A stretch of 50,896 bases of DNA from Bacteroidetes bacterium OLB12 (GTDB taxonomy: Bacteria; Bacteroidota; Bacteroidia; Cytophagales; Cyclobacteriaceae): contig LNFR01000053.1 of NCBI GenBank assembly GCA_001567185.1, positions 1 through 50,896 on the forward strand. Direction: 5' to 3'. Made by a program: the position numbers and the translations under genes. The notes below the pieces were generated by a model. It was not told where the DNA came from, made no database searches, and worked only from the letters and a program-made list of their open reading frames with translations. Positions 3,045 through 25,826 of this stretch are shown here, one piece after another (within the stretch, counting starts at the first letter, position 1; every line of letters begins with the position of its first letter).

Positions 3045-4298
3045 ATGGCAATTTCAGAAGCAGATATTCAAAGTGTAAAGCAACGGTTTGGAGTAATTGG
3101 TAATTCGCCCTTGCTCAACAACGCGGTGCGGGTAGCCATGCAGGTTGCCCCCACAGATATGTCGGTATTGATTACAGGCGAGAGTGGAAGCGGTAAAGAA
3201 TCATTCTCTAAAATCATTCACCACCTTAGTTCACGCAAGCATGGCCAGTTTATTGCCATCAACTGTGGTTCCATTCCGGAAGGAACAATTGATTCGGAAT
3301 TATTCGGGCACGAAAAAGGATCCTTTACCGGAGCACACGAATCCCGCAAGGGGTATTTTGAAGTAACTAATGGCGGCACCATTTTTTTAGATGAAATTGG
3401 AGAAATGCCCTTAGGAACACAAGCCAGGTTACTTCGGGTGTTGGAGAACGGTGAGTTTATTAAAGTAGGTTCTTCGAAAGTTCAGAAAACAGATGTGCGG
3501 GTAGTAGCCGCTACCAACGTAAACCTGTTGGTAAAAGTGGAACAAGGTAAGTTTCGCGAAGATCTATATTACCGATTAAGCACGGTGCCGATTTATGTGC
3601 CGCCTTTGCGCGAACGTGGGAAAGATGTAGAACTGCTATTCAGAAAATTTGCCACAGATTTTGCTGAGAAATACAAAGTAAAACCCATTTCGCTTACTGA
3701 AGATGCCAAAAGTGTTTTGTTGAAGTACCGCTTTCCGGGCAACATCAGGCAACTAAAAAAACCTGGTAGAACAGATTTCTGTTTTATCATCAGACAATAC
3801 AGAAATTACCAGCGAAGTACTTGGACATTACATCCCCCGGGAAACAAGTTTACCTGCGCTGTATAAAGATCAGCATGGAGCTGATAATATTTCCGAACGT
3901 GAAATTTTGTATAAAATCCTGTTCGATCTCCGCAAGGATATGAACGACCTGAAAAAAATTGTACTGGAGGGGGCGAACAATCCAACCCATGCTGCACAGT
4001 TGGTTAAAGAACAATGCTGATTTTTTTATTTGAAGGCATCAATGAAACCATTACTCCCATAACAGAACCTGTTACCTATCTAAACAGCCAGGTAACCCAA
4101 ACCGAACCAGAAGAAGAAGTTCAGGACATTACGCATGAGGCCGAAGACGATTCGCTTTCTATTGTGAAGAAAGAAAAAGAGTTGATTATGCGCGCGCTGC
4201 GTAAAAACAATAACAAACGCAAATATGCGGCACGCGATTTGGGTATTTCGGAGCGAACCTTATATCGAAAAATTAAAGAGTACGAACTTGAAGAGTAA
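3045..4298 (+). CDS. Sigma-54-dependent Fis-type transcriptional activator, two frame breaks
   Basis: An AAA+ enhancer-binding protein that would activate RpoN promoters. It has no receiver or sensor domain and begins directly with the AAA+ module: Walker A GESGSGKE (45-52), the sigma-54 contact loop GSFTGA (92-97) and Walker B FLDEIGE (114-120). The C-terminus is a Fis helix-turn-helix (KRKYAARDLGISERTLYRKIKEYE). The frame breaks at an A7 run (3755-3761). With A6 it reads on as RQLKNLVEQISVLSSDNTEI until about 4018, where a missing base returns it to the original frame. The two shifts cancel and the restored protein is about 417 residues. Both look like consensus errors. Its position between miaB and lptE is typical for Cytophagales. 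Confidence 0.88.
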
Positions 4299-17828: not shown

Positions 17829-20800
17829 TTATTTTCCTAAAGTCACCTGGCTAAAATAAAATAATACTTCTTCACCTGCATTTGCGTTCTTAAACACCAG
17901 TACCAGGTTATGCTTGCCGGTTACCGGCTTAAAGCTAATACCGGATGGCCGCATATTTATGCCGGCCTGCACTTCAATTTTGGGTGCATTGGCAAAACTT
18001 ACGGTGCCAATCTTAGTACCGTCTTTTGAATCCAGCCACACTTCAATGCTTCCGCTCTTCATATTGGCTGCTTCTGCCACTACAAAGTTCAATGAGCCTA
18101 CACCGGTAAAATCAACATCGGCAAAAGTGGCTGTATTATCGTGCTTGATGTTTTCAACTATCTGGATGCCTCCTGCATTTAATTTTCGGGCACCACCGGT
18201 AAGCACCGCATCGGTTGCTGTTAATACGGGTGCTTTCAATACAACCTGCTGTGTGGTACTAAGAGAAGGCATGCCATTGGCTCCATTATCCTCATACGTG
18301 GCCGTAAGCACATAAGCCGAAGTGGCTGCCGGACCCGGAGGTGGTACTGCCGCAAACCCTGACTTTCCCCGTAAGGGTAAACTCTTCACTTTATCTTCGC
18401 TGGCAAGCGATAAAATATATTCTACCATTTGCCCTGCCTGCTCCTTGCTTAATTGCGGGTGTGCAGCCATGGCTACTTCGCCCCAGTTGCCCGAGCCACC
18501 GTTTAGAATTTTATCGCTCAGTACTTCAACAGCGCGCACATCTTTGGCATATCGCTTGGCTACATCACGATAACTGGGCCCGGCTGACTTCTGATCGATG
18601 AGGTGACATGACTTACAATCGCTCTCTGCAATTGCTACTTTACCGGGCAACTCAGCCCGCTGATGGCCTTGCGCAATGGCCGTCATATCAAAACCCTGCG
18701 GATGATAATCCAACGTAACCTTTACCCGTTCGGCTGCAATTTTTCCATCGGCTGTGGAGCCATCTTCTTTATCGGTTACAGTAATTGCATATTCTACCGA
18801 GCCTCCCGGAAGGTACCGATCCGTATTTCCGGTTATTTCAATTTGAATGGCGGGTGGTTCATTGCCGGCAATGATGGTAACTTCGCCTCTTGCTTTGGCC
18901 CCTTTGGAATCAATGGCTGTTATCCTGGGTCTGTAAATGCCGGGCTTGTCAAAAGTAACCTTAAACTCGGGCGTAGGCGATTTTGTAACCACCCCATTCA
19001 ATTCCATTTCATAAGTTATGGCATCGCCATCCGGATCCGTTGTACCATCGGCAGTTACAGTTCCTTCCAACGGTACTGCACCGGAAATCTTACTGGCGCT
19101 AACCACAACCTGTGGCGGGCGGTTGCCTCCGTTATAATCAATTCGCGATAAGCGGGCATCCAGGTTTTGCTTAAACCACTGCGTACCATATTCCAACGTG
19201 TAGAGTTTGCCATCGGGGCCAAACGCCATATCAATGATGTTGTTGAACGGCATGTTGGGCACAAAGGGTTCTATATCCAGAATGTCGCCCTGCTTGGTCA
19301 TGGTAACCAAATGAATCCAGTTTCGCATCCAATCATAGATAATAAGTTTACCATCAAAATAATCGGGGTAAGCTTCGGGTTTGCCCTTAAAATCTTCTGC
19401 GTAATACACCGGACCAGCCATGGCATTGCGGCTACCGGTTTTCATCAAAGGGAAATCGGGCGAGGCATCGTAAGGATACCAGATAAATGGCGGGCTTACC
19501 GGAGGCAATTCGGTTTTGCCGGTATTGTTTGGCGATGTATTTATGGGTTTTGCCGGATCGTGTTTGTTGCCGGCAATTTTCTTTTCGAAATCATACCGGG
19601 CATATGGATAGTTACCACCTATAAACAACGGCCAGCCAAAATAACCGGCTTTGCGGGCCTGGTTCACTTCATCGTAACCACGGGGGCCACGCTCGGGGCT
19701 GTCGTTACCGGCATCAGGACCTACTTCGCCCCAATAGAGGAAACCGGTTTTTCTATCAATAGAAATGCGATACGGATTGCGGTTACCCATCACATAAATT
19801 TCAGGTCGTGTTTGCGCTTCACCTTTCGGGAAAAGGTTTCCTTCCGGAATGGTATAGGTGCCATCGGGCTGGGGTTTTATGCGCAGAATTTTACCTCGTA
19901 AATCGTTGGTGTTGGAGGATGAACCTTGCGCATCAAATGGCGAACGACCGGAACGTTCATCGGCCGGACTATATCCATCCGATTCAAACGGACTGGTGTT
20001 ATCACCGGTTGATATAAAAAGATTTCCATCAGGCCCAAAAGCCAGCGAGCCGCCTGTATGGCAACACGTTTCGCGTTGTGTTGCTACTTCCAGCATTTGT
20101 ATTTCGCTTGCCTGGTCTATTTTGTTATCAGCAAATACAAAGCGCGATAAGATATTAGCCGATTTTTCGGGATGCGAGTAGAAGATATAAAGCCAGTTGT
20201 TTTTCTCAAATTCAGGATCGGTTGTAATACCCAACATACCATCTTCATGTTTTGTAAATACATGAAATGTGTTGATCAGGTTGATTGAATCGGTTTGGGG
20301 GTTGTATAATTTAACAGCCCCTTTGCGTTCGATAAAAATGATCCGGCCATCCGGCAGAATGGTCATTTCCGTGGGTTCGTCAAAATTGCTGCCCAACACA
20401 GTTTTGGTAAACCGGTTCTCTTCCGGCACACGCTTAGCACTTGCTTTGGCGAAGTCGGGTTTCTTTTCGCCTATGGCATATTTAATACCCTGGTACAAAT
20501 GATCCAGGAACAACGCTTCCGTAAACGATTCGTTTGTATGGCCTAACCCGGTGTAGAACGAACGGCCGCCATCATACTCCTGGTACCAGGCAATGGGATG
20601 GTTCTCGCCATTTTCACCACCCTGGTAACTTGTTTCATCCAGGTTGTACAAAACCGTAATCGCATCCGATATGTTTTTGTAGTTGTATAGTTCATCGGTG
20701 CGAATCCATTCATCCGGCAGGTGATCTTCACCAAACGGTTTTACTTTCTTAAATGTAGCTTCCTGAATTTGTGGATGGCTTTTGAAATAGGCACCCACTA

Positions 20801-21167
20801 ATTTGCCATACCACCACCAATCGTATTCGGTATCTGCAGCGGCATGAATACCCACATAGCCGCCCCCGGCCTGAATAAACCGCATAAATTGATTTTGCTG
20901 GGCCTGATCCAACACATCGCCTGTAGTGCTCAGAAAAATTACAGCTCTGTATTTCTTCAGGTTATCTTCGGTAAATGCCTCGGAAGACTCGGTGGTATCT
21001 ACGCCAAAACCTTTTTCAGCACCCATTTTAATTAACGCTTCTTTTCCGGCTTTAATAGACTCGTGCCGGAAGGCTTTAGTTTTTGAGAATACCAGTACGC
21101 GTGGTTGCTCTTGCGAACAAGCGTAGAAAAGCGCACAACAACTTAACAGAATTACTATTTTTTTCAT
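17829..21167 (-). CDS. ThuA / PQQ-type sugar dehydrogenase / PKD / cytochrome c / CBM6-like lipoprotein
   Basis: A 1112-residue lipoprotein (lipobox ALFYAC, C17) with five modules. (1) ThuA-like flavodoxin-type domain, about 22-225 (VLVFSKTKAFRHESI, GGGYVGIHAAADTEYDWWWYGKLVGAYFKSHP). (2) Glucose/sorbosone dehydrogenase beta-propeller, about 250-680 (LPDGRIIFIERKGAVKLY, ETCCHTGGSLAFGPDGNLFISTGDN). (3) PKD domain, about 682-770. (4) Class-I cytochrome c with haem motif CKSCH near residue 850. (5) A beta-sandwich like CBM6, about 985-1110. It would oxidise a bound sugar and pass electrons to its own haem at the cell surface or periplasm. This domain order is known in Bacteroidota. It is followed by a TonB receptor and is near the DUF1080/Gfo-Idh genes. 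Confidence 0.9.
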   Translation of the reverse strand: MKKIVILLSCCALFYACSQEQPRVLVFSKTKAFRHESIKAGKEALIKMGAEKGFGVDTTESSEAFTEDNLKKYRAVIFLSTTGDVLDQAQQNQFMRFIQAGGGYVGIHAAADTEYDWWWYGKLVGAYFKSHPQIQEATFKKVKPFGEDHLPDEWIRTDELYNYKNISDAITVLYNLDETSYQGGENGENHPIAWYQEYDGGRSFYTGLGHTNESFTEALFLDHLYQGIKYAIGEKKPDFAKASAKRVPEENRFTKTVLGSNFDEPTEMTILPDGRIIFIERKGAVKLYNPQTDSINLINTFHVFTKHEDGMLGITTDPEFEKNNWLYIFYSHPEKSANILSRFVFADNKIDQASEIQMLEVATQRETCCHTGGSLAFGPDGNLFISTGDNTSPFESDGYSPADERSGRSPFDAQGSSSNTNDLRGKILRIKPQPDGTYTIPEGNLFPKGEAQTRPEIYVMGNRNPYRISIDRKTGFLYWGEVGPDAGNDSPERGPRGYDEVNQARKAGYFGWPLFIGGNYPYARYDFEKKIAGNKHDPAKPINTSPNNTGKTELPPVSPPFIWYPYDASPDFPLMKTGSRNAMAGPVYYAEDFKGKPEAYPDYFDGKLIIYDWMRNWIHLVTMTKQGDILDIEPFVPNMPFNNIIDMAFGPDGKLYTLEYGTQWFKQNLDARLSRIDYNGGNRPPQVVVSASKISGAVPLEGTVTADGTTDPDGDAITYEMELNGVVTKSPTPEFKVTFDKPGIYRPRITAIDSKGAKARGEVTIIAGNEPPAIQIEITGNTDRYLPGGSVEYAITVTDKEDGSTADGKIAAERVKVTLDYHPQGFDMTAIAQGHQRAELPGKVAIAESDCKSCHLIDQKSAGPSYRDVAKRYAKDVRAVEVLSDKILNGGSGNWGEVAMAAHPQLSKEQAGQMVEYILSLASEDKVKSLPLRGKSGFAAVPPPGPAATSAYVLTATYEDNGANGMPSLSTTQQVVLKAPVLTATDAVLTGGARKLNAGGIQIVENIKHDNTATFADVDFTGVGSLNFVVAEAANMKSGSIEVWLDSKDGTKIGTVSFANAPKIEVQAGINMRPSGISFKPVTGKHNLVLVFKNANAGEEVLFYFSQVTLGK

Positions 21168-21245
21168 CAGCTACTAATTACTATGGTAAAGATTGTGGCG
21201 GCCGCAATCTGTTTCAACCTATGCGTGTATTGCGGATGCCGGAAA

Positions 21246-21253
21246 CAAAAGTA
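21246..21253 (-). promoter_or_regulatory. Bacteroidota -7 promoter box for the ThuA/sugar dehydrogenase gene
   Basis: Minus-strand TACTTTTG, an exact TAnnTTTG match, 79 nt before the ATG at 21167. The rest of 21168-21329 shows no gene. Confidence 0.45.
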
Positions 21254-21329
21254 ACAACTACTACCGTATAGCCGCTTATTAAAATCACTTTCCTTGAATT
21301 TTAATTTGTACTTTTTACCGATGCGCAGG

Positions 21330-21718
21330 CCATTTTGTTATTGTTAGTCGCAGACCAACAAATTATTGCTCCTTCAAAATTAAATACACTTCTTAACCGT
21401 TGCGGGTCAAAAAACTTCCCAACATCAACTAAGGGATTGCGGAACGCGCAAAGGCTCTAAGATTAAAAGTTGAAGCAACGATTAATCAACACGGCTCAAA
21501 TTTAAACTCGTTCACTTGTCCGCAATGACTGTGTATTATGGGTAGCTGTGCTATTAAAACAGCCGTTGGCAACAAGACCCCGACTTTAAGGAAATAATTT
21601 CCGTATGCATGTTGGAGAAGAACTCAACATGGGCGAGGAACTACCGGCTTTAAATCGCGCAGAGTTCCTGCCTGCCGCAGGCAAGCCCGAAACGGGTAAC
21701 TCTGCGAGGAAAAAAGGC
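21330..21718 (+). repeat. Structured ~390-bp direct repeat, copy 1
   Basis: This non-coding stretch is repeated in the same orientation at 22841-23232, and in part at 24425-24620. A 106-nt core (21468-21573) is identical by eye to 22984-23089. The left end has an imperfect hairpin (TTGTTAGTC / GACCAACAA, 21341-21361). A near-palindrome GGAAATAATTTCC lies at 21590-21602, and the right end folds as a three-way junction (21658-21706). The ends are not terminal inverted repeats and no transposase is near. The hydrolase gene begins 52 nt after this copy. Short open frames inside look non-coding. Confidence 0.9.
21658..21706. other. Potential three-way junction at the right end of repeat copy 1
   Basis: The outer arms CGCAGAGTT (21658-21666) and AACTCTGCG (21698-21706) are perfectly complementary. 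They enclose two smaller perfect hairpins: TGCCTG-CCG-CAGGCA (21669-21683) and CCCG-AAA-CGGG (21686-21696). Copy 2 keeps both inner hairpins and 8 of 9 outer pairs at 23173-23221. It could act as folded single-stranded DNA, as RNA, or as a terminator-like structure. Confidence 0.75.
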
Positions 21719-21770
21719 TTGGATGTCGGGTTTGTTTTTGCTATATTCATCTGGCCAAAAAAAAACTGTT

Positions 21771-22789
21771 ATGAAAAAAATCCTCATCCTCTCCTTATTT
21801 CTTTCGTTTTTCGGTTGCGGAACTGAAAAACCAGTCGATGTCGAAAAGCTTTCGTATTACAACTTGCAAGAACCGGGGGTGAAGTCGGGGGGCATAAAAA
21901 TGATTCCAGTTCACGGAGGGAAATACAAGGTGTGGACTAAGAGAGTGGGCAATAGTCCGCGTATTAAAGTATTGTTGTTGCATGGCGGCCCTGCTGCCAC
22001 TCATGAATACTTCGAAAGTTTCGACAGTTACTTTCCACAAGAAGGTATTGAGTACTACTATTACGATCAACTAGGAAGCTACTACAGCGATCAGCCAACC
22101 GATACAAGCCTTTGGAACCTGCCACGTTTTGTTGAAGAGGTGGAAGAAGTACGCCAGGCGCTGGGCCTCGACAGCACAAATTTTTACTTATTGGGAAACT
22201 CGTGGGGCGGCATTCTGGCAATGGAGTATGCCTTAAAATATCAGCAGCACTTAAAAGCTCTGGTCATTGCCAACATGATGGCCAGTGCCCCCGAATACGG
22301 AAGGTATGCCGATGAAGTTTTAGCAAAGCAGATGGATCCAAAAGTATTGGAAGAAGTAAGGGAAATTGAGGCCAGAAAAGATTTCTCGAATCCGCGTTAC
22401 ATGGAGTTGCTGCTTCCTAATTTTTACGAACAACATCTTTGCCGTTTCCCTTCCGCACAATGGCCCGACCCTGTCAACCGGGCCTTCAAGCATTTGAATG
22501 CAACGGTATATACGCTGATGCAAGGCCCAAGCGAATTTGGCATCAGCGGCAAACTGGAAAAGTGGGACATCTCCAAACGGCTGCCGGAGATTACCGTGCC
22601 CACGCTTACAATTGGCGCCACCCACGACACCATGGACCCCAAGCACATGGAGTGGATGAGCACACAGGTAAAAACGGAAGGTTTTTGCTGTGCCCCAACG
22701 GAAGCCACATGAGTATGTGGGACGATCAGGAATATTTCTTTCCGGGGTTAATTCAGTTTATAAATGATGTGGACAGTGGTAAATTTTAA
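21771..22789 (+). CDS. Lipoprotein alpha/beta hydrolase, proline iminopeptidase-like (S33), one frame break
   Basis: ATG 21771 gives a lipoprotein signal (MKKILILSLFLSFFGC, C16). The S33 landmarks follow: oxyanion motif HGGP (71-74), YYDQLGSYYSDQP, and nucleophile elbow GNSWGG (Ser144). GATHDTMDPKHM holds the likely Asp, and the catalytic His is in CPNGSHMSMW. The last part lies in another frame. The A5 run at 22670-22674 should be A6, which restores QVKNGRFLLCPNGSH and a 339-residue protein ending at 22789. It is probably a periplasmic or surface-anchored peptidase or esterase; the substrate is unknown. It sits alone between two direct-repeat copies (52 nt and 51 nt away), which suggests it arrived as an accessory cassette. 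Confidence 0.87.
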
Positions 22790-22840
22790 GCCTTAAACTT
22801 GTAGTTGGCAGTAATGCTGTCCGACAAAAAATAGTGTTGT

Positions 22841-23232
22841 CCATTTGTTATTGTTGGTCGCTGACCAACAAATTACTGCTCCTTCAAAATCAAATGCGCT
22901 TCTTAACCGTTGAGGGTCAACAACGTACCCACCTCAACTAAGGGATTGCGGAACGCGCAAGCGCGCAAGGCCCTAAGATTGAAAGTTGAAGCAACGATTA
23001 ATCAACACGGCTCAAATTTAAACTCGTTCACTTGTCCGCAATGACTGTGTATTATGGGTAGCTGTGCTATTAAAACAGCCGTTGGCAACGAGACCCCGAC
23101 TTTAAGGAAATATTTCCGTATGCATGTTGGAGAAGAACTCAACATGGGCGAGTAACTACCGGCTTTCAATCGCTCAGAGTTCCTGCCTGCCGCAGGCAAG
23201 CCCGAAACGGGTAACTCTGCGAGGGAAACGGC
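22841..23232 (+). repeat. Structured ~390-bp direct repeat, copy 2
   Basis: Second full copy, same orientation as copy 1. Here the left-end hairpin is perfect: TTGTTGGTC (22851-22859) and GACCAACAA (22863-22871) around a 3-nt loop. GGAAATATTTCC (23106-23117) is a perfect palindrome, and the right-end three-way junction is at 23173-23221. Relative to copy 1 it carries an extra 8-bp unit in the GCGCAAGCGCGCAA stretch and scattered substitutions outside the identical 106-nt core. No coding sequence is visible in 22790-23303. Confidence 0.9.
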
Positions 23233-23303
23233 TCCGCTGTTGTTGTTACACTTGCCAATCCCGCGGTAATCTTGTTAAGTAACAGACACTTGTGAAAAAC
23301 TTA

Positions 23304-23919
23304 TTAAAAATTTAATTCTGACTTAAAGTTTTCAAGTGTCAAGAAAAATGAATTGTCAATTTTCTTTAATTCATAGCGTTCGTATTTAGGAGTATCAGAT
23401 ATACTTTCAATTAATACTCTATCCCCTAAATCCCTTATCTTTAATTCTACAAATTTAGTCGAGAGTTTTTTATACATATCTAGAGTAAATCCCTCATTAA
23501 TATCATTTAAGCTTAATTTTTTTCCAGGTAAGTAACAAATGTTAATAATATAATTTAAGCTATCAACCCTCTTTATTACTTGAATATTTTGAATATTAGT
23601 CATCGTACGCTGGCAATTTTTAATCCTTATTAGCTTATTGGTAAAAACCAAGGAGGAATCAATATAGACACAACCCGGAAATTTACTGCCCTTATTTATC
23701 ACACGCTTTGAATTATTCGACATGGCAACATGCCAAACTTTTTTTTGACTTAAGATTTGTAATTACAATATTGTTCTCATCAATCGACATTACTTTAAAG
23801 GATGCATCTCTCTTCGAAGTTTGATCTCTTCCATCAAAGTTTATGTAATCCAAGTCTTTAAAATAGCTAACCTTCTCATTAACTGAAATCAGAAAGAAGA
23901 GAAGAATAAATTTCGTCAT
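23304..23919 (-). CDS. Unknown AT-rich protein, probably one gene with a frame break
   Basis: Two overlapping minus-strand frames (23713-23919 and 23304-23723) meet at a T8 run (23739-23746). With seven bases the first frame reads on as NLKSKKVWHVAMSNNSKRVINKG into the second, giving about 204 residues. The N-terminus MTKFILLFFLISVNEKVSYF could be a signal peptide or anchor, and the rest is Lys/Asp/Asn-rich (VIKRVDSLNYIINICYLPGKKLSLNDINEGF). The sequence is visibly more AT-rich than its neighbours, consistent with recent acquisition. No family is recognised. Two separate small genes are a possible alternative. It is immediately downstream of the 143-residue unknown gene. Confidence 0.55.
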
Positions 23920-23931
23920 TTCGTTAAAAGT

Positions 23932-24363
23932 TTAAGGGTTAAACTTATCTATCAATTTTTTAATTCGATTTTTCCTGGCTTTTGTAAGCCAATTTCGATT
24001 CTTGACTTCTATCTTACCACTCATATGAACCTTTACTTTATTTGTGATTACCTTCTCAACTATACCAAAATTCGTGGACCATTTGCCTATATCTGTTAGA
24101 GTCGCTACTGACCTACCGTAGGCGAAATGATGGGTCATTCCAGAATATGTACCATTGAACAGGAGTGTGTTTGACATGGAGACACTCCTGTTTGCCAAAA
24201 TAGTTGCACCATTAAACTTCATCCCTAAACGCACAGTCAATTCCGGTTTTGTTCCCTTGCCCTTGCCGGTGTTCTTCACCGGCAAATTCTGAAACAAAAT
24301 TATTCCCCCTATTCCATCCTTCAAGGTAGCATTTTCATTTATTACAAACACAAACCAGTGCAT
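23932..24363 (-). CDS. Unknown AT-rich basic protein (143 aa)
   Basis: Starts MHWFVFVINENATLKDGIGGIILFQNLPV and ends with a very basic tail (KNRNWLTKARKNRIKKLIDKFNP). There is no clear signal peptide. An in-frame stop lies directly before the ATG, so it is either a complete small gene or the 3' remnant of something larger. It is 12 nt upstream of the second unknown gene, in the same orientation, and both sit between repeat copies 2 and 3. Base composition is AT-rich. I do not recognise the family. The pairing with a possibly membrane-linked neighbour is reminiscent of an effector/partner pair, but nothing proves it. Confidence 0.5.
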   Translation of the reverse strand: MHWFVFVINENATLKDGIGGIILFQNLPVKNTGKGKGTKPELTVRLGMKFNGATILANRSVSMSNTLLFNGTYSGMTHHFAYGRSVATLTDIGKWSTNFGIVEKVITNKVKVHMSGKIEVKNRNWLTKARKNRIKKLIDKFNP

Positions 24364-24424
24364 TTAGTTATTTCAAACGCGTAGTCCCTTTGTAAGGTAT
24401 GGAAACTGAGCAGGAATTTTAAAC

Positions 24425-24620
24425 GGGAGATTGCGGAACGCGCAAGCGCGCAAAGGCTCTAAGATTAAAAGTTGAAGCAACGATTAATCAACACAATTCA
24501 AATTCAACTCGTTTGCTTGTCCGTAATGACTGTGTATGATAATGTGGTATTAAAAAATCTATACGCAGGGTCCCTGCTACACTTTCCATCGTTTACAGAA
24601 ACCCCGCCTGAAAGGAAACC
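24425..24620 (+). repeat. Partial, diverged third copy of the direct repeat
   Basis: Bases 24427-24535 match the central part of copies 1 and 2: GATTGCGGAACGCGCAAGCG, the CTCTAAGATTAAAAGTTGAA block, CAACGATTAATCAACAC, and CTTGTCCG.AATGACTGTGTA. It shares the extra 8-bp unit with copy 2. The right part (24540-24620) is diverged and has its own GCAGGG-T-CCCTGC hairpin (24565-24577), and the end keeps only ACCCCGCCTGAAAGGAAA. The left hairpin and right three-way junction are missing. The remaining gap to 24716 shows no gene. Confidence 0.75.
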
Positions 24621-24673
24621 AGGTAATTAAAATTAATTCAATAAGATTAGCCAGCGAAGAATCTTTAAAAGCA

Positions 24674-24699
24674 AAACGCCAGACATTAGCCTGGCGTTT
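24674..24699 (-). terminator. Intrinsic terminator after the DUF1080 gene
   Basis: AAACGCCAG (24674-24682) and CTGGCGTTT (24691-24699) form a perfect 9-bp stem with an 8-nt loop. Reading on the minus strand it is followed by TTGCTTTTAAAG, a broken T tract. It lies 17 nt after the stop of the minus-strand DUF1080 gene. Confidence 0.7.
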
Positions 24700-24716
24700 G
24701 GTATTATACTTTCTGA

Positions 24717-25414
24717 TTAAAGAGGTCTTATCTTAATATTCCGATACCAGACTTTATCGCCATGGTCTTGCAGGGAAATATGGCCTTTCGAAAACTTACC
24801 AAAGCCGGGCATACTCTTAAATTTACTGGCACCTACCAGGGCATCCCATTCGGGTGTATGCATGGTAAACTCAACCGTTTTGGTTCCGTTTAGCCAAAAT
24901 TCAATTTTACCTTTATTGCTGATAAGCCTGGCTACATTCCACGCGCCCGCAGGTTTTACCGTTTCTTTCGAACAGGAAATCAAATCATACAAATCGCCTG
25001 CCCGGTGCTTGATAATTTTTGCATCCGGATGGCACTCGTTGTCCAACACCTGCATTTCGGGGCCCGTCATCCACACATACTTGTATTCGTCTGCTTCCTG
25101 TACATGAAAGATAACACCGCTGTTTCCGCAAGGTGTATTTTCCACTCCAGGTATAACTCATAATTTTCAAACTGCTGATCGGTTACCAGGTCTCCGCCTT
25201 TTTCTTCCTTGTTGGAAGTGTCGAGAAACAACGCATCTTCAGAAATCTTCCAGGCAGCACCTACCTGCCCGGATTTATAGTTATGCCAACCTTTTGTGCT
25301 TTTTCCATCAAACAAAAGTTGCCAACCGTCTTTTTTTTCTTTTGCAGTAAGCGTGTTGGGTTGGGCCTGGGCCGCCACCACCACGCTTAAAAATAGCAGA
25401 AATATTAGCCGCAT
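24717..25414 (-). CDS. DUF1080 / 3-keto-disaccharide hydrolase family protein, one frame break
   Basis: An exported beta-sandwich protein of about 232 residues. ATG 25414 opens a signal peptide (MRLIFLLFLSVVVAAQAQ), then KKDGWQLLFDGKSTKGWHNYKSG, the classic DUF1080 start. The frame is lost near 25134-25141, where one base is missing. Restoring it gives YELYLEWKI-TPCGNSGVIFHVQEADEYKYVWMTGPEMQVLDNE, followed by AGDLYDLI, W-rich strands and DHGDKVWYRNIKIRPL. Pfam names this family 3-keto-disaccharide hydrolase, and members act on 3-keto-glycosides. It is last in a tight operon with cytochrome c, the TIM-barrel protein and the Gfo/Idh oxidoreductase, the partners expected for that chemistry. A longer frame upstream (to 25474) overlaps the cytochrome gene and is rejected. 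Confidence 0.88.
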
Positions 25415-25415
25415 C

Positions 25416-25826
25416 TTAATGCTCTGTTTCACCATCCAGCGAGAGTACATACCGCGCCATCTTCTCGGCATCAACCTGCGAAATATCCGCGTGAGGTGTC
25501 ATTGGAATTTCGCCCCACACACCCGTACCGCCTTCTATTATTTTTTTGGCAAGGTAAGTAACATTGGCTGCGGTAAATTCATACTTCTTGGCTACATCGG
25601 TGTGCGATGGCCCAATCAGTTTATTGGTAGCATGATGGCAGGTTTTACAATCGCTTGCTTTTACCAAGGCATCGCCCTGGGCAATTACATCCACCGCATG
25701 AACCGGTGTTGTGGTTTCTACCGGTGCACCGTAATCTTCGGTTTGGGTTTCTGTTTTTTTAGAGCCACAGTAGGTTAATGTTACAACCATTAGTACCATT
25801 AACAACAGAGAAATTTTATTTTTCAT
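25416..25826 (-). CDS. Class-I cytochrome c lipoprotein
   Basis: A 136-residue lipoprotein with signal ending LTYC (C20) and a low-complexity Thr/Glu linker. One haem c is attached at CKTCH (C60, C63, H64). The likely distal ligand is Met109 in EIPMTPH, and the helix ends MARYVLSL. It resembles the cytochrome module of the 1112-residue ThuA/sugar-dehydrogenase protein (same VAKKY, KIIEGGTGVWGE and MTPH-type segments), so the two may share electron partners. It ends 1 nt before the DUF1080 ATG and likely takes electrons from a sugar-oxidising step in the periplasm. Confidence 0.93.
   Translation of the reverse strand: MKNKISLLLMVLMVVTLTYCGSKKTETQTEDYGAPVETTTPVHAVDVIAQGDALVKASDCKTCHHATNKLIGPSHTDVAKKYEFTAANVTYLAKKIIEGGTGVWGEIPMTPHADISQVDAEKMARYVLSLDGETEH

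Follow-up and report, generated by a model that had tools for sequence, protein, structure and literature searches.

How do accessory genes come to be exchanged between two conserved genes, and what part, if any, do the direct repeats that border them play? The question is raised by a ~3.5-kb insert in a 50,896-nucleotide contig of Bacteroidetes bacterium OLB12 (GenBank assembly GCA_001567185.1, contig LNFR01000053.1; this whole stretch is called the window below), which has a ThuA-type gene on one side and a DUF1080 gene on the other and is split by direct repeats of ~390 bp. A preliminary description, made from the sequence alone, took the insert for a site at which single genes are swapped between the repeats, either by a recombinase acting in trans or by homologous recombination. 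The explanation that we favour, and consider fairly probable, is a variable site resembling a minimal mobile element (as defined in the accessible parts of PMC3898611 and PMC3082526), with a resident mosaic of three kinds of repetitive extragenic palindrome (REP) hairpin and a further element, module B, and with a turnover of cargo that would proceed by homologous recombination.

A variable site between conserved genes

Among 57 same-genus relatives searched at a strict E-value with the ThuA-type and xylose-isomerase-like proteins, 14 encode the two flanking proteins no more than 6 kb apart; in one genome (G063) they lie 2.6 Mb apart, and in the remaining relatives one of them is missing or is found on another contig. 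Thirteen of the 14 have no more than 1,417 bp between the two, and the sister species SSA6 (G023) has 5,254 bp; the corresponding distance in the window is 4,691 bp. In eight of the 11 relatives fetched, the ThuA and DUF1080 blocks are separated by a mere 50-140 bp, in two (G026 and G073) no DUF1080 match was seen, and in SSA6 an insert is present. This insert, of 3.66 kb, carries a cargo wholly different from that of the window, including a helix-turn-helix (HTH)-like regulator (weak NCBIfam matches), a HicB antitoxin, a lipoprotein-like gene recognised by eye and an RDD protein.

The boundaries of the insert can be traced by comparing the two species. On the left, synteny runs through the ThuA gene, the intergenic stretch and the first two modules of the repeat, A and B, up to window position 21557, and on the right it resumes at 24660; between these positions SSA6 shares with the window nothing but short repeat matches (B and the hairpins C and E). 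At the right edge of the SSA6 insert, 10 bp separate the end of a D-type REP from the point at which synteny begins again. The comparison of relatives for empty sites thus bears out the insertion site for accessory genes that the preliminary description had proposed: the same two conserved genes are separated by different whole-gene cassettes in two species and by none in other relatives, which is the arrangement that characterises a minimal mobile element.

The composite repeat

So what are the repeats? Copies 1 (21330..21718, from BLAST and alignment) and 2 (22841..23232, from alignment), both on the plus strand, reach 94.2% identity (gaps excluded) in an alignment of 396 columns, of which 36 differ, 14 of them being gaps; the two same-orientation direct repeats originally described are therefore real, and that observation is confirmed overall. 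Of the partial third copy, which had been placed at 24425-24620, only module B aligns (24429..24543, ends approximate, plus strand), and the remainder to 24620 does not. The identical core said to be shared by copies 1 and 2 exists, but is 108 nt long (21466-21573) rather than 106; a run of this length (P = 0.0042 in 20,000 random shuffles of the 26 difference events) suggests conversion or recombination between the copies. As to whether this core is constrained or recently homogenised, homogenisation appears likelier because B copies elsewhere in the genome differ across part of the 108-nt stretch.

When copy 1 was compared by BLAST with its own genome, 14 matches were obtained (three of them the window copies), which cut the repeat into pieces of independent distribution, namely A (1-109), B (104-213), C (~265-311) and D (~321-391). 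The long repeat is a composite, with the order A-B-X-C-D in both copies, X being a linker. Contig C76 has A, C and D together without B; contigs C52, C64 and C12 have B without A, C or D directly joined to it, with an E hairpin ~55 bp from one B copy on C52; and around B on contig C67, strict REP patterns are absent from the 15 kb fetched.

Module A (21330-21435 in copy 1, plus strand, by BLAST and alignment) contains a hairpin of the REP type GTTGGTC..GACCAAC, which is imperfect in copy 1 (21341..21361, located by type pattern and position scan) and in copy 2 forms a perfect 9-bp stem with a 3-nt loop (22851..22871, hairpin scan). The hairpin of module C (21608..21631) has an AAGAA loop and lacks a single base of a perfect stem; loop and stem tie it to REP type C/E. 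The D-type hairpin, GCAGAGTT..AACTCTGC, is represented in the window at 21657..21706, where it equals the 31-nt hairpin of contig C1 of the same genome with 19 extra nested bases.

The repeats contain no open reading frame (ORF) of at least 100 aa. A known RNA family was considered and rejected, the five Rfam matches within 20600-25400 (E-values up to 5) all scoring far under the gathering thresholds. A viral or plasmid origin was also rejected: a 49-nt core gave no exact matches in viral contigs, copy 1 had no match in plasmids, and the region 21168-24720 had none in phages.

REP hairpins and tyrosine transposases

Judged by sequence, modules A, C and D are REP-type hairpins resembling those that stand beside genes of REP-associated tyrosine transposases (RAYTs) in same-genus relatives. 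P0006, a gene of Y1 type from a repeat array of SSA6, served as the query; it reaches 70.3 bits against NCBIfam REP_Tyr_transpos (cut-off 80), has no Pfam match, and is matched in 46 of 62 genus genomes. The 30 loci returned for P0006 make up our RAYT set, and their flanks (201 and 260 bases) were scanned for the hairpin types; 19 of these loci, with at least 47% identity, are referred to as group I, and the other 11 are more distant. Hairpins of D type flank 16 of the 19 group-I loci (all except L206, L208 and L209). Among the distant loci, A-type hairpins flank three (L213, L215 and L222, the last with one D match as well), C/E-type hairpins occur at two (on both sides of L219 and on one side of L220), and the flanks of six have none of these types. 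The background, taken from other fetched loci that total 332.6 kb and in part overlap, amounts to four D, two A and one C/E matches, and both A matches as well as the lone C/E match are the thuA site itself, in the two genomes. A tree built for 24 of the 30 RAYTs groups the three A-type loci in a single clade (support 0.998); the D type accompanies RAYTs like P0006, L222 being the exception, and C/E is represented by two non-sister loci only.

The AAGAA/TTCTT loop is found in 28 of the 60 hairpins with a 5-nt loop and a stem of at least 8 in 42 long sources, some of them overlapping, and over all loci the AAGAA-loop hairpins comprise 13 distinct sequences with four different inner stems; because the scan demanded perfect stems, the informative part is the enrichment of a single loop across different stems. 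P0006 itself has the motifs NHLH and YIHDNP, close but not identical to the NH[LIV]H and YIH[QN]NP of Bacteroidetes RAYT subclass 2.6 (PMC6006769, in the part available), and for this reason we leave it unassigned. The same part of that paper describes subclass 2.6 RAYTs as flanked by atypical secondary structures that are copied elsewhere in the genome, with hairpins that lack the tetranucleotide GT[AG]G (PMC6006769). In the window, GT[AG]G is absent within 12 bases on either side of seven hairpins.

In the genome that carries the window, contig C1 holds a 25-residue 5' RAYT remnant with D-type hairpins and, by eye, a 3' remnant; a distant RAYT relative is encoded on C33, and C39 has a Y1_Tnp gene. 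In SSA6, at 3.942-3.952 Mb (L188, 4100-14200), a 10-kb array with REP doublets, one intact RAYT, several RAYT fragments and genes of unknown function sits between ftsZ-like and dnaE-like genes (named by eye).

Module B

Module B (21433..21545 in copy 1, plus strand, by alignment) is an element of ~110 bp with the terminal inverted repeats ATTGCGGA/TCCGCAAT, both of which are exact in eight of 12 aligned copies. The only stem common to these copies is the 8-bp terminal one, and compensatory base pairs are absent, so that B was rejected as a structured RNA; it was also rejected as a RAYT-flanking REP, since the sole two matches in 53 sources were the window's own copies. Under strict filters, a model of B finds 11 copies in its own genome and six in SSA6 (four of them strong), with weak matches in six further genomes of the 62 of the genus, some within tandem arrays of 244-247 bp. 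The pattern of exact ends matches the SSA6 chromosome only, among searched genome contigs from which own-genome records were possibly excluded. Tandem arrays with periods of 244-266 bp lie at 1019-1594, 3410-4081 and 5699-6438 of L175 and at 6208-6790 of L180 (G026), and in three of the four, B-like elements alternate with inverted repeats of the GTCATTCCGG or GTCATCGCGG type.

Have the copies at the thuA site been there for long? Across the 15 strong copies, with the thuA site of both species treated as one locus, identity is 85.6% within and 71.3% between loci, a difference reached in none of 20,000 permutations, and the four thuA-site copies of the two species fall into a single clade (support 0.84). 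All in all, the repeats seem to have resided at the thuA site for a long time and to have undergone local copying or homogenisation as the cargo changed.

The same architecture at other loci

Module B recurs around other accessory genes. In SSA6, at 808-816 kb, copies stand between Rhs-core fragments that bear effector-type domains (Peptidase_M91, DUF6973), genes of lipoprotein-like proteins and a gene for a ParE toxin, part of a ParE pair; HipA genes adjoin this array. The own genome has B copies on C52 around unknown genes and an IS3-type transposase, on C67 around two genes without Pfam matches, and on C12 beside an HTH/Gp49 pair. On C76, two 160-nt repeats, 99% identical and 3,246 bp apart from start to start, bracket genes for a DUF6134 protein, a short-chain dehydrogenase and an epimerase, and end in D, which has nested bases of the kind found in the window. 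The two stretches that flank the C52 site, or the SSA6 array, are not neighbours, or one of them is unmatched, in the other relatives searched, and empty sites are not cleanly readable there.

Several further regions may be placed on record. Contig C78 (L187) has, by eye, a biotin-carboxylase-like gene in common with a flank of the SSA6 array and an Rhs-core fragment ~16 kb away, and is perhaps the counterpart of that array. By tblastn, Rhs-core fragments also occur in repeat-rich regions, four in L189 (SSA6, 583-603 kb), which has RAYT copies as well, and one in L190 (G009, contig C24). At 10171-11563 of L118, an Rhs-core fragment fused to a DUF6973 domain is followed by a lipoprotein-like gene, the layout of an orphan cassette. 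Finally, between sdhB-like and uxaA-like genes (named by eye), SSA6 has 27.5 kb (3.961-3.988 Mb, L191-L192) and the own genome 5 kb with three B copies.

Cargo and edges of the insert

The first cargo gene (21723..22712, plus strand) encodes, by domain scan, a hydrolase of the S33 or proline-iminopeptidase family (TIGR01250, 311.9 bits, cut-off 167.65) and has a lipoprotein-type start, seen by eye, ~50 nt from copy 1, as had been supposed. Compared by eye with a homologue, its frame is shifted near 22.68 kb (22660-22789), shortly before its end, so that the listed ORF ends early. The other two genes, on the minus strand, are P0002 (23304..23723, 139 aa, 27.6% GC), which may occupy an immunity-gene-like position, and P0003 (23932..24363, 143 aa, 38.4% GC), which is matched in one of the 62 genus genomes, its own. 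Both had been described as AT-rich unknown genes on the opposite strand, which holds for the strand and the unknown status, but only P0002 is strongly AT-rich against the 44.5% GC of the window. Within P0003 lies hairpin E (24263..24285), of REP type C/E, with a 9-bp stem and the AAGAA loop on the minus strand; P0003 has no family match that would make it an Rhs C-terminus, and an Rhs core was not detected in the window. PADLOC yielded no anti-phage defence match among six cargo proteins. Nor is there a transposase domain in the three insert ORFs scanned, or a local recombinase, in agreement with the preliminary description.

Barely within the conserved right flank, the hairpin scan found a terminator-like hairpin on the minus strand (24674..24699). 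The DUF1080 gene that follows (24717-25474) is split over overlapping frames, 24717-25145 and probably 25067-25474, in the place of the one frame of eight syntenic relatives, owing to either sequencing error or decay.

Is the S33 gene habitual REP cargo? We had to reject this, because among the 11 homologue loci examined (13 relatives have a homologue) canonical REP patterns flank the gene at only one. In G026, the S33 homologue directly adjoins a D-bracketed RAYT.

Comparison with known systems

REPs, bacterial interspersed mosaic elements (BIMEs) and REPtrons, defined in the available parts of PMC8266576 and PMC3733652, offer a close likeness in that short palindromes beside a gene for a Y1-HUH transposase (RAYT, or TnpA-REP) recur elsewhere and cluster as mosaics, and the window hairpins lack the GT[AG]G foot as do those of Bacteroidetes subclass 2.6 (PMC6006769, in part). 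The preliminary claim that no named element has this form hence stands for module B, which is unnamed, but not for most of the repeat, a REP/RAYT mosaic. What differs is that three hairpin kinds are here joined to a 110-bp element unrelated to them, that the resulting mosaics flank entire accessory genes, and that the own genome yielded a remnant only of a group-I RAYT. The neisserial mosaic elements built of dRS3 and RS, as far as PMC3898611 was available, likewise form intergenic mosaics close to variable genes, the small repeats having short inverted repeats at their ends, but the window has no match to the dRS3 20-mer ATTCCC(N8)GGGAAT, and has instead the ATTGCGGA/TCCGCAAT pair at the ends of module B. 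From the minimal mobile element, in which, according to the parts seen of its defining papers, two conserved neighbours enclose different whole-gene cassettes or none across genomes, taken up through homologous recombination alone, the thuA site differs in that the variation is between species rather than strains, that internal repeats bracket the cassettes, and that recombination is inferred.

In arrays of orphan Rhs C-terminal cassettes, the likeness is to the SSA6 array, in which copies of module B lie between Rhs-core fragments, effector-type domains and small lipoprotein-like genes; the window, by contrast, has no detectable Rhs core, and P0002 and P0003 are alike in position only. Integron cassette arrays also have direct repeats between single genes, but here there is no attC core pair, nor, in this draft genome, an integrase over the cut-off. 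A transposon or composite insertion sequence would differ in carrying a transposase, and neither the three insert ORFs scanned nor the repeats, which have no ORF of at least 100 aa, provide one. In the open-licence literature searched, we found no paper joining Bacteroidetes Rhs orphan cassettes with intergenic repeats, none on REPs with an insertion hotspot and none on a tyrosine transposase with Rhs; the only one there on RAYTs and toxin-antitoxin genes (PMC3390384, available in part) describes atypical regions of Pseudomonas as REP-poor, the opposite tendency.

Competing explanations

Could the repeats be attC-like sites at which a recombinase encoded elsewhere inserts and removes single genes? 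The spacing is suggestive, given that B copies of like orientation enclose one gene or a few between them in two genomes, spaced 0.8-2.7 kb apart except for a 0.15-kb gap on C67, and six tyrosine recombinases are encoded in the own genome, one of which, on C108, comes to 213.9 of the 220 bits required for NF040815, a family whose description includes integron integrases. An attC site has the consensus RYYYAAC (R'') and GTTRRRY (R'), and no such same-strand pair exists in copies 1-3; module B has no compensatory pairs and no stem but the 8-bp terminal one; none of the six recombinase ORFs, one of which runs off its contig in this draft genome, passes the TIGR02249 cut-off (best 199.1 of 265 bits) or lies on a repeat-bearing contig; and the mosaic that makes up the composite repeat is not the same at C53 as at C76. 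With the integron reading disfavoured by both the attC and the integrase tests, dedicated site-specific exchange, as first proposed, finds no support, and we regard it as highly improbable. The idea of an enzyme acting in trans takes on some substance in that three of the modules are like the hairpins beside RAYT genes in relatives and that a RAYT remnant exists in the own genome. Transposases of the IS200/IS605 group move their elements through single-stranded DNA, and a RAYT might similarly act in trans on REP hairpins at both ends to move the gene between them; REP-type hairpins at the cargo edges, the S33 homologue of G026 next to its RAYT and the REP-ended repeats around three genes on C76 would fit. 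However, the parts available of PMC8266576 and PMC6006769 report a transposase that cleaves and rejoins REPs, not one that moves cargo genes, ten of the 11 S33 homologue loci are devoid of the canonical REP pattern, and the own draft genome yielded no intact close RAYT; such movement seems very unlikely. As a long shot, RAYTs could in trans excise and reinsert whole accessory genes (toxin-antitoxin genes, orphan toxin/immunity pairs, hydrolases) by way of REP-ended repeats; were this true, REP hairpins would be cassette borders, and single-strand HUH transposases would give Bacteroidota a cassette economy like that of integrons.

Another possibility, which we consider unlikely, is that REPs, module B and acquired genes piled up independently at a tolerated site, copy 2 being a segmental duplication and the repeats having no role in exchange. 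This is compatible with B standing alone on C64, with the occurrence of REPs in intergenic clusters in the literature consulted in part, and with the within-locus likeness of B, which local duplication would also produce. It accords less well with a cargo that is wholly different in the window and SSA6 next to an orthologous A+B repeat, with the 108-nt identical run, and with the further cases of bracketed cargo, one at C76 and others, in which B alone does the bracketing, at C52, C67 and the SSA6 array. In the minimal-mobile-element-like site that we favour, the REPs would have been placed by RAYTs since lost or unlinked, and cargo would enter, leave and duplicate through RecA-type homologous recombination between same-orientation repeats, both the local ones and those on incoming DNA, the S33 segment and the P0002/P0003 segment probably having been acquired separately. 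Several facts weigh against this explanation. The insert is present in two species only. No recognised REP lies near the right breakpoint of the window, hairpin E being the nearest and the B of copy 3 ending ~115 bp away. Nine of the 11 RAYT proteins compared (P0006 and those of ten of the 30 loci) fall under the NCBIfam cut-off, although all match REP_Tyr_transpos and two exceed it, and Pfam Y1_Tnp matches three of nine further RAYT proteins (two over its cut-off). The palindrome stands beside its cognate RAYT for the hairpin types in relatives, not for the window copies themselves; strict patterns miss the window D copies, with their 19 extra bases, and the C copies, one base short, D being tied to the canonical form by the 31-nt exact match to C1 and a side-by-side comparison. 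Module B occurs at none of the 30 RAYT loci, is found without cargo between two convergent genes on C64, and does not always group by locus (the closest copy to C52c is that of C64, and C12 is closest to a copy of the SSA6 array). The scarcity of REP patterns around S33 homologues belongs here too, as does the intact group-I RAYT, which may be missing from the assembly because this is a 118-contig, 92%-complete draft.

Implications

Under the explanation favoured here, REP-type mosaics of three kinds would border swapped accessory genes. If this proves to be general, such mosaics could be landmarks for variable sites and orphan toxin cassettes in Bacteroidota, and RAYT-REP systems could serve gene turnover besides their own spread.

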